Source of the DNA: Chloroflexota bacterium
GTDB taxonomy: Bacteria > Chloroflexota > UBA11872
Direction: 5' to 3'
NCBI GenBank assembly: GCA_022825895.1
Contig: JAJDVX010000022.1
Span: forward strand, 124,001 to 188,000
DNA: 64,000 nucleotides
Shown here: in pieces, positions 17,504 to 24,869 of the stretch
How positions within the stretch are numbered: the stretch's first letter is position 1
How the letters are laid out: each line of letters begins with the position of its first letter
Made by a program: the position numbers and the translations under genes
The notes under the pieces: generated by a model
Database searches by the model: none
What the model was told of the DNA's origin: nothing
What the model saw: the letters and a program-made list of their open reading frames with translations, nothing else

Positions 17504-20194
<2,691 letters not shown>

Positions 20195-20560
20195 ATGGCG
20201 AACAGCGTGGTGCATTGGGAAATCAACGCCAAGGACGGGCCGGCAATGCAGAAGTTCTACGGCGATCTCTTCGATTGGGAGATCAGCGTCGCCAACCCCA
20301 TGGGCTACGGAGTGGTCAGCGCGCCCAGCGAGGGTCCGGGCATTGGCGGCGGCATCATGGGCATGGGGGATGTCGAGCCGCCGACCAGGGTCACGTTCTA
20401 CGTGGGCGTGGACAACGTGACCGAATATCTGGAGAAGGCCGCGAGCATGGGCGGCAGCGTGATCATGCCGGAGATGGAAGTGATGGACGACGTGGTCATC
20501 GGGATCTTCGCCGACCCCGAGGGCCAGGTGATCGGCTTGGTGAAGAACGTCCCGATGTAG
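20195..20560 (+). CDS. VOC (glyoxalase/bleomycin-resistance) family protein
   Basis: 121 residues. VVHWEINAKDGPAMQKFYGDLFDWEI is the first beta-alpha-beta-beta-beta unit, and VTFYVGVDNVTEYLEKAASMGGSV with FADPEGQVIGL the second. Substrate unknown. The track start 20009 is too early; AGGAG lies one base before ATG 20189 but seven before ATG 20195, so 20195 (MANSVVHW) is chosen. Confidence 0.9.
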   Translation: MANSVVHWEINAKDGPAMQKFYGDLFDWEISVANPMGYGVVSAPSEGPGIGGGIMGMGDVEPPTRVTFYVGVDNVTEYLEKAASMGGSVIMPEMEVMDDVVIGIFADPEGQVIGLVKNVPM

Positions 20561-20706
20561 GACGCCGCGACTTGACTCCCTTCAAAAAAGAGTAGGGGCG
20601 GTTAGCGGACTACCCACGCGGAAGCAATGGTGTCGTAGCCGCTGGCCGCCACCAGCGGCTGGAGCGGATTGACGACGCGGTGGATTGAGAGCGACTCCGC
20701 ACGTGG

Positions 20707-20728
20707 CCCAGGCTGCGCGCAGCCTGGG
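20707..20728. repeat. Perfect 22-nt palindrome (CCCAGGCTGCG half-site), copy 1
   Basis: CCCAGGCTGCG is followed by its exact reverse complement. The same hairpin, with one base changed in the centre, recurs at 21138-21159, and a half copy lies at 20818-20827. Both full copies sit exactly 55 bp before a PhyH-like ATG. Confidence 0.8.
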
Positions 20729-20782
20729 ATCCGCGGCGCACCCACGCTCGGCAGCCCCACCCGGCCGCAACAGAAACTCGCA

Positions 20783-20812
20783 ATGAACGCCGAACCGCCG
20801 GCCGTTCAGCCA
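20783..20812 (+). pseudogene. Remnant of a PhyH 5' end
   Basis: ATG plus nine codons (MNAEPPAVQP) closely match the start of the intact PhyH gene at 21214 (MSADPPAGQP), about 26 of 30 bases identical by eye. The 55-bp leader back to the hairpin is also recognisably similar. Coding stops at the junction with the HicB cassette. Confidence 0.65.
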
Positions 20813-20827
20813 TGTGGCCCAGGCTGC
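20809..20827. repeat. 19-bp direct repeat, left of HicB-like gene
   Basis: GCCATGTGGCCCAGGCTGC is identical at 21129-21147. The two copies bound a 301-bp segment holding the HicB-like gene, so they look like cassette ends or a target duplication. Confidence 0.75.
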
Positions 20828-20846
20828 CCACCCTGACCCGATTTCC

Positions 20847-21098
20847 TTACGACGTGATAGGCACCGGGACCGCGTGCACTGAGACCTCGACCGAATCACC
20901 AGCCGCATCGGTCGAAGGGAACGGCTGCGGAAGCGGAAGACCCTGTCGAAGCATCCCGTCGAAGTGGAATGCCAGGGCTTCGGCCATGTTGTAACGGCAC
21001 TCATCCTCCGTTGCTCCGGTGGCAACGCAGCCATCGACATCAGGGGAGTACGCCGAGAAGTTCCGCGGCCCCCGTTCAATCTCAATTCGGTAGCGCAT
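20847..21098 (-). CDS. HicB-like antitoxin family protein (no HicA seen)
   Basis: 83 residues from ATG 21098. MRYRIEIERG, FSAYSPDVDGCVATGATEDECRYNMAEAL is the HicB fold, in which the DVDGCVATG segment is the usual family hallmark. The C-terminus lacks a recognisable ribbon-helix-helix or HTH extension. Type II HicA toxins normally adjoin HicB, but no HicA-like ORF is visible on either side, so it may be an orphan. AAGGGA lies upstream of the start. The earlier track start runs into repeat sequence. Confidence 0.8.
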   Translation of the reverse strand: MRYRIEIERGPRNFSAYSPDVDGCVATGATEDECRYNMAEALAFHFDGMLRQGLPLPQPFPSTDAAGDSVEVSVHAVPVPITS

Positions 21099-21128
21099 GT
21101 CGGTTCCCTTAGAGGCCAGCCTGATGCT

Positions 21129-21147
21129 GCCATGTGGCCCAGGCTGC
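21129..21147. repeat. 19-bp direct repeat, right of HicB-like gene
   Basis: Exact second copy of 20809-20827; it overlaps the left half of the second hairpin. Confidence 0.75.
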
Positions 21148-21159
21148 GTGCAGCCTGGG
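21138..21159. repeat. 22-nt near-perfect palindrome, copy 2
   Basis: Same arms as copy 1 (CCCAGGCTGC / GCAGCCTGGG) with centre GT instead of GC. It lies 55 bp before the PhyH start at 21214 and could form a hairpin in its leader. Confidence 0.75.
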
Positions 21160-21213
21160 ACCGTCCGAGCGGCTACCGTAGGCAGACACACCCTCCCGTA
21201 GCGAGAACGTGCC

Positions 21214-22059
21214 ATGAGCGCCGATCCTCCGGCCGGTCAGCCTGCCTGGGCTGAACTTGGCACGGGCGAACGCATCCGCAGCCTCGAGGTGGAGGGCTAC
21301 GTCGTCCTGCCTGGCACGCTGGATGCCGAAACCGTCGCCCGGCTCAAGGCACAGGCCGCCGCGTGGGACCCGACGCCGGTGCATTACAGCCCGAATCAAC
21401 GCACGCAGTCGGACGTGCAGTTTGCTGGCGGCGCGGTGACGGAACTCATCGTGCATCCGCCGGTAATCGACTTCCTTCGGGCGGCGCTGGGGCCGGACCT
21501 GGTGTTCATGCACGCGCACTACGCCATCTCGGCGCCGGGGCATCCGGGTATGAACCTGCATACCGACTCGCATCCCTACGGGACCAGCGACTGGGGCTAC
21601 GCCTTCAGCGCGCCGCGGCAGGTCCGGGTGCTGTATTACCTGGACGACCTGACGACGGACGTGGCGCCACTGCGCGTGGTCCCGCGGTCGCACCTGTCCA
21701 TGCACCCGGACGCGAATCCTTACAAGCGCTATCCCTCGCATCCGGATGAGGTCGTCATCACCGCGCCCGCTGGCACGGCGGTGGTGATCAACCTGGCGCT
21801 CTTCCACGCCAACGGCCCGAACACCGGCAGCCGGGCGCGAGAAATGATCGCGCTGTCCTACCGCCCGGCCTGGTGCGGACCGACCGTCCAGGACCTGGAA
21901 CCGTGGCCGGACGAAGTCCTGGCGAGTCTCCCGCCCGCTGTCCTCAAGCTCTGCGGCGACCGCAACCAGCGCGACACCCACGACCAGCCCGGCATGCCGC
22001 CCATCGATCCCCGAACCAACGCCCCCGGCATCAGCCCCCGCCGCTGGGAAAGCGCCTAA
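21214..22059 (+). CDS. Phytanoyl-CoA dioxygenase (PhyH) family Fe(II)/2OG oxygenase
   Basis: 281 residues. Facial triad His116-x-Asp118 (NLHTDSHP) and distal His198 (FHANGPN), followed by SRAREM with a 2OG-binding Arg. Hydroxylates an unknown organic substrate in the cytoplasm. The ends are notable: the 5' leader plus first ten codons, and the last codons plus downstream gene, are each duplicated nearby around an inserted toxin/antitoxin-like gene. Its stop shares CTAA with the convergent Gfo/Idh fragment. Confidence 0.9.
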   Translation: MSADPPAGQPAWAELGTGERIRSLEVEGYVVLPGTLDAETVARLKAQAAAWDPTPVHYSPNQRTQSDVQFAGGAVTELIVHPPVIDFLRAALGPDLVFMHAHYAISAPGHPGMNLHTDSHPYGTSDWGYAFSAPRQVRVLYYLDDLTTDVAPLRVVPRSHLSMHPDANPYKRYPSHPDEVVITAPAGTAVVINLALFHANGPNTGSRAREMIALSYRPAWCGPTVQDLEPWPDEVLASLPPAVLKLCGDRNQRDTHDQPGMPPIDPRTNAPGISPRRWESA

Positions 22060-22435
22060 ACCCGAACCGTCCGCCCGCTCTCAGCCGACTCATAGGCCGC
22101 ATGCACCACCCGCAATGCCGCCAGGGCTTCGAAGCCGGTAATCGGCGCCGGCTCGCCCAGGCAGGCGCGCAGCGTGCGCTCGATCCACGGGGTGTAGTTG
22201 GCGAAATCCGGGCCGCTGTAGGCGATGCGGCGGTTCGGGACGCCGCCCGGGTCCGGCGACGTGGAATGCCACTCCAGCAGGTGCCGGTCGGAGGCTCCGA
22301 ATCGCAGCCAGCCGTTGGAACCCCAGAGACTCAGGTCCAACTGGTAGGGCTTGTCCAGCAGGTAGCCGGACACCAGCGAGCCGTAGGCGCCGTTGGCGAA
22401 CCGCAGGTTCACCAGCGCCAGGTCCTCCACGTCGA
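22018..22435. repeat. 418-bp direct repeat, left copy
   Basis: Aligns without gaps to 24452-24869, about 29 mismatches by eye (roughly 93% identity). It contains the last PhyH codons and the C-terminal part of a Gfo/Idh gene. Between the copies lie 2,016 bp of unique DNA with a TA-like pair. Confidence 0.9.
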
Positions 22436-22451
22436 AGACCACACCTAACAT
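22056..22451 (-). pseudogene. C-terminal fragment of Gfo/Idh/MocA oxidoreductase
   Basis: 131-residue frame whose part from DVEDLALVNLRF to the stop nearly matches the C-terminal 126 residues of the intact gene at 24490-25518. The NAD(P)-binding Rossmann domain is missing, and homology ends abruptly at 22435. Almost certainly inactive. The reading frame has stayed open despite about 7% nucleotide divergence from the intact copy. Confidence 0.85.
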
Positions 22452-22758
22452 CTACGCACTCCACCTCTCGGCAGATGGCGACCGACTGTACGTGCGGTGT
22501 TCGGCCGAATCCGGCAGGCTGCGTCTCTTCGTGATGTTCGACGAACCTGGTTGATTGTTGGGGAACGAGAACGATGTGGCTGGTGCGTTCGTACGGCTGG
22601 ACGACGAGCCTCGCGTCGCCCAGCTTTGGGAGTTGTCCATTAGTCGCACGGAAATGTTTGCACCATCAGTTGCCGATCAGGCGTGGGCCCGTCACCTGCT
22701 AAACGCGCAGCAGCTGGCCACCGGGGCCTATCCCAATGCCGACGGCCAGTGGTGGTGA
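22441..22758 (+). pseudogene. Nonsense-interrupted coding remnant of unknown family
   Basis: One frame reads PNIYALHLSADGDRLYVRC to MFDEPG, a TGA near 22551, then continues in the same frame through NDVAGAFVRLDDEP and SISRTEMFAP to a stop at 22758. The composition is protein-like on both sides of the TGA. It resembles the substrate-binding beta proteins with RLDDxPxxxxxWxxSxSRT patterns, but no family could be assigned. Confidence 0.45.
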
Positions 22759-22971
22759 GCCGACGTCGACTGCCGATCCCCGGACGACACCACGCACCCC
22801 GTGGTTTGGGTGCTCACAATCTGCGGGCACGATGTCTAACCGTCCACCCGGTGCTCCCCACCGGCATCAGAATTGCTCACCGCTCATCACACATACCCAC
22901 CATCCAGCAATCTTCCTGGTAGCCGGCCTCAGTACACTTATCGAGGTTCGCAAGACCGTAGGGTAGCCACC

Positions 22972-23628
22972 GTGACACCGCCCGACGCCGAGAACATCCC
23001 GGTTCATGCGTTGACGGCTGAACAGGTGTGCCGTCTCACGGGGCTGTCCACGAGCCGCCTGCGGTACTGGAATAGGACCGGGTTCTTTCAGCCGGCGTCC
23101 AACCCATCGGTGCGTGGCCCGTATGGAGCGTTCTACTCGTTCCGCGACGTGGTTGGCCTGCGGACGCTGGCGGTGCTCCGGGGCAAAGCATCGCTTCAGT
23201 CGTTGCGAAGAATTGGGGAGTATCTCCAGGAGCACTTCGACGACCCGTGGGCCAGCCTGCGGTTCTATACGGCCGGGCGGGACGTGCTCGTCGATATCGG
23301 CGCCGGACCCGTGCTACTTGTAGAGGGTGGGGCCCAACACGCTTTTGACATCGGTCTCATTGAGGTAATCGGGGACATGCGAGATGCCGTCGAGGGGATG
23401 CGACATCGTCGACCCGAGCAGATCGGACACTTTGACCAGCACCGATTCACCGCCCACAACCAGATCGTCGTCGCAGGGACCCGAATCCCCATTGCGGCGG
23501 TATGGGCCTTTCATCAGGCGGGGTACAGCCCGGAAGCCATCGTGGACCAGTACCCACGGCTTGACGTCGCCGACGTTGAAGCCGTGGTCGCCCACTACTC
23601 GACCGACACCACCGCACGTGCCAGCTAG
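22972..23628 (+). CDS. MerR-like HTH + DUF433 protein (antitoxin-like)
   Basis: About 218 residues from GTG 22972 (AGGG eight bases upstream). N-terminal MerR-like HTH: LTAEQVCRLTGLSTSRLRYWNRTGFF, then FYSFRDVVGLRTLAVLR. C-terminal DUF433 at about 165-215: NQIVVAGTRIPIAAVWAFHQAGYSPEAIVDQYPRLDVADVEAVVAHY. DUF433 proteins are usually about 75-residue antitoxins beside DUF5615 PIN-like toxins; this one carries an additional N-terminal regulator. The PIN-like gene follows after 5-29 bp. A TACACT element at about 22932 could be its -10. Confidence 0.85.
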   Translation: MTPPDAENIPVHALTAEQVCRLTGLSTSRLRYWNRTGFFQPASNPSVRGPYGAFYSFRDVVGLRTLAVLRGKASLQSLRRIGEYLQEHFDDPWASLRFYTAGRDVLVDIGAGPVLLVEGGAQHAFDIGLIEVIGDMRDAVEGMRHRRPEQIGHFDQHRFTAHNQIVVAGTRIPIAAVWAFHQAGYSPEAIVDQYPRLDVADVEAVVAHYSTDTTARAS

Positions 23629-23657
23629 GTCGGGTGGTCCACGTGGCGCCACCACGC

Positions 23658-24035
23658 ATGCGGCTGCTCATGGACGAGTGTGTGCCGGACCTGGTGGCGG
23701 ACGCGTTTGGCGACCGGGGGCACGAGATTCACTTTGCTCGCGACGAGTGTCCCGAAACCCCTGACCACGGGGTCCAGCACCACGCCGACCAGATTGGTGC
23801 CATCGTGGTCACGTGGAATATCAGGCACTTTCGTCAACTTCCCCGGTCGCACCGGACCGGCCAGTTGGAAAGCCACCTGGGTCGAATCGACTTCAAGTGC
23901 GGGGAGGCGCTGGGTGCCGAGCGGGTAGTGGAGCTAGGCAAATTGATCGACACCGCGTACGCCATGCACCAAGAGGTTTCGACGGAACGGTTCTTTGTCC
24001 GCATCACGACCCAGTACATCACGTTCTTCCGGTGA
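23658..24035 (+). CDS. DUF5615 PIN-like toxin candidate
   Basis: About 125 residues. The start MRLLMDECVPDLVADAFGDRGHEI is the DUF5615/PIN-like N-terminus with the first catalytic Asp (MDE). A second acidic cluster follows in ARDECPETPDHG, and AIVVTWNIRHFRQL holds the usual TxNxxHF strand, with Asn where many relatives have Asp. Predicted RNase toxin paired with the upstream DUF433 protein. ATG 23658 matches the family start; GTG 23634, closer to the antitoxin stop, is an alternative. Confidence 0.78.
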   Translation: MRLLMDECVPDLVADAFGDRGHEIHFARDECPETPDHGVQHHADQIGAIVVTWNIRHFRQLPRSHRTGQLESHLGRIDFKCGEALGAERVVELGKLIDTAYAMHQEVSTERFFVRITTQYITFFR

Positions 24036-24451
24036 GAACCGCCGACCTAAGTCCCGCCCCCGGCCACGCCATGCGGACCACGCCCATCAGCCCGTAATCT
24101 TAGACTTGTACAGATAACGCAGCGTCTCGGAATCCTGGATTCTGCGGATATAGCGTGCGGACATTTTGGCCGACCTCTGACGCCGGGGCCTTGCTCGGCC
24201 TGAAGCGGCGCTCCGGTTTGCGTCACGATGATCGAAAAACCGACTCTCGGACTGTGCCCGACGTCGTCGGCTGGATCACGGCCAGGCGCTTCGACAATCT
24301 GCTTGATGCGGAGTCGACTGACGCGACCGTTCAGTGGACTGTTTTTCCGTGACATGCATATCGGGTCGCCGGGTACCGCGCTGCCGCGAATCTGTTTGAG
24401 CGCGTCAACCACCTACGCCGGATTCGCGAGGGAGGTGCGGTTACCTTTCTG
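24036..24451. other. Non-coding right part of the island
   Basis: About 416 bp, visibly less GC-rich than the flanks. Short frames (24155, 24228) have no recognisable motifs. No terminal inverted repeat or recombinase gene was seen. Confidence 0.5.
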
Positions 24452-24869
24452 AACACCCCCGGCATCAGCCCCCGCCGCTGGGACAGCGCCTAAAGCCGAA
24501 CCGTCCGCCCGCCGTCAGCCGACTCATAGGCGGCGTGCACAACGCGTAACGCGGCCAGGGCATCGGCGCCTGTGATTGGCGCCGGCTCGCCCAGGCAGGC
24601 GCGCAGCGTGCGCTCGATCCACGGGGTGTAGTTGGCGAAATCCGGGCCGCTGTAGGCGATGCGGCGGTCCGGCACGCCGCCCGGGTCCGGCGACGCGGAA
24701 TGCCACTCCAGCAGGTGCCGGTCGGAGGCTCCGAAGCGCAGCCAGCCGGTGGATCCCCACAGGCTCAGGTCCAGTTGGTAGGGCTTGTCCAGCAGGTAGC
24801 CGGACACCAGCGAGCCGTAGGCGCCGTTGGCGAAGCGCAGGTTCACCAGCGCCAGGTCCTCCACGTCGA
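24452..24869. repeat. 418-bp direct repeat, right copy
   Basis: Gapless match to 22018-22435. It begins with the last 13 PhyH codons and stop (24452-24493, PGISPRRWDSA), an orphan remnant here, and ends inside the intact Gfo/Idh gene. Confidence 0.9.

Follow-up and report, generated by a model that had tools for sequence, protein, structure and literature searches.

The katG-glyoxalase-PhyH interval

The window, by which we mean the whole stretch of DNA that was analysed (64,000 nt), comes from the genome of an uncultured Chloroflexota bacterium (UBA11872; assembly GCA_022825895.1, contig JAJDVX010000022.1, positions 124,001-188,000, forward strand). Between a glyoxalase-family gene and a gene for a PhyH-family dioxygenase it carries a short hicB gene, which is flanked on both sides by PhyH leader sequence. 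The following features were located in this interval and downstream of PhyH:

19784-19870, + strand: remaining 3' end of vapB; a vapB gene, in some genomes together with vapC, occupies this place in relatives
20198-20560, + strand: glyoxalase-family gene (PF00903); hicB lies on its opposite side in G005, G007, G008 and G012
20700-20811, + strand: P1, a PhyH leader fragment (palindrome, leader, ATG without gene body, ten PhyH-like codons) with a 112-nt match to P2
20707-20728, strand not assigned: palindrome 1, REP-like (CCCAGGCTGCGCGCAGCCTGGG)
20809-20827, + strand: left copy of the 19-bp repeat, the left half of a decayed palindrome on the 3' side of hicB; fuller versions occur at the same place in relatives
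20847-21098, - strand: hicB, intact frame of 83 aa, predicted orphan antitoxin (PF15919); orthologs in G005, G007, G008 and G012
21109-21130, - strand: hicA stub, the stop codon and about seven last codons with a 7-nt internal deletion, as compared with the full 62-aa hicA of relatives
21129-21147: right copy of the 19-bp repeat, at the left end of P2
21131-21242, + strand: P2, the PhyH gene's own leader and gene start, with the right copy of the 19-mer and palindrome 2 at its left end
21138-21159: palindrome 2 (CCCAGGCTGCGTGCAGCCTGGG)
21214-22059, + strand: PhyH-family dioxygenase gene, 281 aa (PF05721); orthologs in 10 relatives
22018-22435, + strand: left copy of a 418-bp duplication (the final 42 bp of PhyH and the C-terminal part of Gfo/Idh), 93% identical to 24452-24869
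22873-23628, + strand: MerR-DUF433 gene (Pfam), which forms a toxin-antitoxin-like pair with the DUF5615 gene downstream of PhyH
23634-24035, + strand: DUF5615 gene (Pfam), partner of the MerR-DUF433 gene (insert 22873-24035)
24452-24869, + strand: right copy of the 418-bp duplication

The window's genome (W) was compared at this locus with 10 genomes of the same genus that have an orthologous PhyH gene (89-94% identity), giving a set of eleven related genomes. The gene order in the 10 relatives is katG - glyoxalase - PhyH - Gfo/Idh. The protein encoded by the window hicB matches HicB_lk_antitox (PF15919) with an E-value of 4.8e-7 and 30.4 bits, above the curated cut-off of 27.

Leader units, palindrome and 19-bp repeat

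Self-comparison aligned P1 and P2 ungapped over 112 nt with 83/112 identical positions (74%; E 4e-19). The repeat is far above chance, because the next best 112-nt match to the leader unit on both strands of the 64-kb window reaches only 55/112. The two ATGs, at 20783 and 21214, are 431 bp apart; each palindrome lies 54 nt ahead of its ATG, and the ten in-frame codons of P1 read MNAEPPAVQP as compared with MSADPPAGQP in PhyH. A first-pass annotation of the DNA had described two such palindrome-leader-ATG units, the degenerate PhyH codons, a HicB-like gene between them and exact 19-bp direct repeats at 20809-20827 and 21129-21147, and all of this held on re-examination. An assembly error is an unlikely source of the duplication, since the longest exact matches between the units are no more than about 20 nt and each unit differs from every relative. 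We also considered the leader as a special RNA and rejected this, as the fold of the 92-nt leader is no more stable than that of shuffled sequences (z -0.61); the palindrome itself forms a hairpin.

In a tree of the leader units, P1 fell with the P units next to hicB in G007 and G008 (support 0.84), and P2 was grouped with the unit proximal to PhyH in G008 (0.90). Because the tree separates the two in this way, P1 probably did not arise simply by recent duplication of P2; our confidence in this is moderate, as the units are only about 110 nt long and mostly 70-86% identical, support in the leader tree is modest to moderate, and chimerism inside P1 lies beyond its resolution. In G007 and G008 a leader unit is followed by a decayed palindrome and then by hicB, which is the order of P1, 19-mer and hicB in the window. 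Alignment of the 3' flank of hicB showed that this junction is common to W, G007 and G008 except for a 6-nt difference. Pieces of the PhyH leader with its first codons were also found upstream of the glyoxalase gene in G006, G007, G008, G009, G011 and G012, whether hicB was present or absent. As G006, G009 and G011 have such pieces without hicB at the locus, leader duplication is independent of hicB.

A search of the genome for the 19-mer and the palindrome, as the first-pass annotation had proposed, detected the 19-mer GCCATGTGGCCCAGGCTGC exactly at its two sites in the window and nowhere else, and three copies of the palindrome core (GTGGCCCAGGCTGC-NN-GCAGCCTGGGA). The 19-mer consists of the palindrome's left half and its left flank. 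Across the genus the core is present in 11 of 13 genomes with 0-22 copies per genome (up to 2 mismatches allowed) and absent from a reversed control. We class the palindrome as REP-like on sequence grounds, because it is multi-copy throughout the genus, its sites mostly differ outside the palindrome and a few flanking bases, and most of them have neither hicB nor a PhyH leader beside them. The third copy in the source genome lies about 100 bp ahead of a DUF2283 gene on contig 33 (L011, G000:C33, 1501-1824), at a site flanked by two frames that resemble paralogous enolase-superfamily genes.

These results led us to discard the 19-bp repeats as the ends of a HicB cassette, as they had first been read: the 19-mer represents one half of the REP-like palindrome, most copies of which stand without hicB. 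REP elements lacking cargo at most sites, which the annotation had itself named as the finding that would speak against it, are largely what the genomes contain.

Toxin-antitoxin genes at the locus in related genomes

The gap between glyoxalase and PhyH is free of hicB in all 10 same-genus relatives; nine of them have a single leader there, and G012 an extra PhyH fragment. Orthologs of hicB (89-91% aa identity) were found between katG and glyoxalase in 4/10 relatives (G005, G007, G008 and G012), in all four with a full 62-aa hicA directly ahead of hicB. The one hicA tested is a HicA_toxin (PF07927, E 1.4e-16). In the window, no adjacent full hicA toxin gene was found but only the terminal codons of the stub, which run into GCCATGTGGCCCAGG, the left end of P2; the relatives' hicA has GCCCATGT at the matching place and the P2 side has GCCATGT, a short shared motif. 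Because the hicA stub is fused to P2 at a motif shared with the relatives' hicA, the window hicB is best read as an orphan antitoxin left by a deletion that ended at this motif. Values of pN/pS for hicB were 0.31-0.34 in pairs with W as compared with 0.11-0.27 in other pairs, which suggests somewhat relaxed selection on hicB in W, although the gene is too short to decide.

Along the locus, hicBA takes three positions across the five genomes: the katG side of vapB/glyoxalase, the gap between vapB and glyoxalase (G012), and the gap between glyoxalase and PhyH (W). Neither the 10 relatives nor a wider scan of GTDB genomes yielded an example of a complete hicBA in the glyoxalase-PhyH gap. In that wider scan, close hicB relatives were confined to these Chloroflexota MAGs, and the next best sequences reached at most 65% identity. 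The hicB tree paired W with G005 (0.98), and a tree of katG, glyoxalase, PhyH and Gfo placed W beside G001/G005. As both trees agree in placing W near G005, hicB is most likely an old resident that was passed on within the locus. Beyond hicA, all four relatives with hicBA also have a conserved 52-aa frame without Pfam match (in L052 at about -1392 to -1233 relative to PhyH; also in L046 and L054, with a variant in L050), which may be a third member of the hicBA unit.

The katG-glyoxalase interval of the relatives contains a VapB-like gene, below the Pfam cut-off, and in some genomes a PIN-domain vapC (E 9.9e-11); in the window vapB is reduced to its 3' end. The window spacer between glyoxalase and P1 (20561-20699) is of the type found in G006, G007, G008 and G011, whereas the neighbouring core genes group with G001, G005 and G010. 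This mismatch is a possible trace of recombination between species.

Downstream of PhyH, neither the DUF433/DUF5615 insert nor the 418-bp duplication is present in eight relatives at that site, and the arrangement resembles an insertion that duplicated a long target. Contig 36 (L145, G000:C36) carries another DUF5615 gene, flanked by a 191-bp direct duplication (88.5% identity; 1162-1352 and 2209-2400) of the leader that precedes a gene for a putative solute-binding lipoprotein; this insert is also found in G004, and the leader without insert in at least five relatives. Both are better examples of long-target-duplication insertion than hicB. The first-pass annotation had proposed that PhyH acquired a toxin-antitoxin gene by duplication at each of its ends, which seems right for the DUF433/DUF5615 pair with its 418-bp duplication and not for hicB. 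At the same site, G011 (L049) carries other cargo between partial duplicates, a 251-aa frame of unknown family, and about 320 bp of non-coding insert is common to G011 and the window (22018-24869).

A general rule that toxin-antitoxin genes are bracketed by long direct repeats was not upheld. Bracketing repeats were counted at 4/27 DUF5615 loci in the genus and 3/28 PIN loci in the own genome versus 1/30 GFO controls and 1/19 other PhyH loci, no clear excess over controls, and the repeats at several HicB-like loci proved to be tRNA-gene-like duplications or paralogous toxin-antitoxin genes. Another hicB-like gene (L095 in G009, L098 in G000:C14, L106 in G010) lies between 62-85 bp repeats that resemble the 3' half of a tRNA gene, and in L098 an integrase-like frame adjoins it. 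The arrangement has the appearance of ordinary tRNA-gene integration.

Origin of the arrangement and comparison with known systems

The reading that we favour, with a probability of roughly 0.65, is that an old hicAB unit was relocated among repeated PhyH leaders and then decayed to an orphan antitoxin. Local rearrangement and decay fit best, rather than a newly inserted cassette, because related species keep the full hicAB elsewhere in the same neighbourhood. The katG-glyoxalase-PhyH interval would be a toxin-antitoxin-rich site of the genus, in which P units, each with its REP-like palindrome, are scattered as direct repeats. The hicA-hicB pair, accompanied by a P unit or by the palindrome of one, would already have stood between katG and glyoxalase in the common ancestor. 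In the window's lineage, or in a recombination donor, recombination between P units may then have placed [P-hicBA] beside the P unit of PhyH, past glyoxalase. A later deletion at the short motif, between GCCCATGT in hicA and GCCATGT at P2, would have removed hicA except for its stub, together with the sequence as far as P2, and spared the PhyH gene with its own leader. The data show directly the repeats, the stub of hicA, the complete orthologous hicAB at another place in the locus, and the groupings in the gene and leader trees; we infer the P-unit recombination, as the simplest account of how hicBA moved, and the order of events.

The insertion of hicB with target duplication of the PhyH leader, by contrast, appears unlikely. 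It would account for the 112-nt direct duplicates that bracket hicB and for the spot without hicB in all ten relatives, and two clearer cases occur in the same genome (the 418-bp DUF433/DUF5615 and the 191-bp DUF5615 duplications). But P1 groups with the hicB-adjacent leaders of other species (G007/G008) and not with P2, P fragments occur without hicB, and hicB itself was probably inherited within the locus. A cassette that brought its own 19-bp ends and duplicated the leader on insertion, as originally proposed, is not supported. The replacement of the whole glyoxalase-spacer-P1-hicB-P2 block by homologous recombination from an unsampled related species, in which the rearrangement had taken place, is likewise improbable: the spacer and P1 do resemble one group of genomes and the core genes another, but in the hicB tree W remains beside G005, and glyoxalase gave no clear donor signal.

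Palindrome halves on both sides of hicB, and the genus-wide repetition of the palindrome, could be taken to indicate a mobile palindrome-ended element, integron-like or REPIN/RAYT-like, with hicB as cargo. We consider this very unlikely, as most palindromes have no hicB nearby, the sites share the palindrome only and no longer ends, and no recombinase gene lies between the repeats. REPIN/RAYT mobility was rejected: a Y1_Tnp (RAYT-type) transposase gene was found in 0/13 genus genomes, which are incomplete, as compared with 5/14 control genomes.

With relocation and decay of an old hicAB unit as the preferred reading, these eleven related genomes provide a well-sampled example of a toxin-antitoxin pair that persists, changes its place within the locus and ends as an orphan antitoxin, without loss of a working start for the metabolic gene next to it. 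The DUF433/DUF5615 insert and the contig-36 case suggest that the long-target-duplication mode of restriction-modification genes may extend to toxin-antitoxin genes here. It is a speculative and rather doubtful extension that toxin-antitoxin modules of the genus spread, and change place, by picking up pieces of the starts or ends of the host genes beside which they insert; these pieces would restore the target gene and then serve as portable homology for ordinary recombination, with no transposase.

Among known systems, the window shares with hicAB type II toxin-antitoxin modules (PF07927/PF15919) a HicB family protein, and its relatives the hicA directly ahead of hicB; unlike in these modules, hicA in the window is cut to a stub and hicB is an apparent orphan. 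Orphan antitoxins of decayed toxin-antitoxin modules similarly have an intact antitoxin frame and have lost the toxin, but here fragments of a host leader bracket hicB, and its position is unlike that in relatives. As in REP/REPIN systems, the palindrome is short, GC-rich, present in few to about twenty copies per genome and often clustered; in contrast to these, no RAYT (Y1_Tnp) was found in the genus and the palindrome sits inside a gene leader that is duplicated. Integrons and other site-specific cassettes differ in that the sites here share the palindrome only and no recombinase frame was found between 20560 and 21214. Insertion with long target duplication has been described for restriction-modification systems (Nobusato et al. 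2000, as cited in PMC3031569). As far as it is described there, the direct duplicates of host sequence around a selfish gene pair and the empty sites in relatives are alike and fit DUF433/DUF5615, whereas hicB differs in that it was already in the locus and its bracketing copies are not mutual nearest relatives: P1 and P2 group apart, with moderate support, and not as two copies from one duplication.
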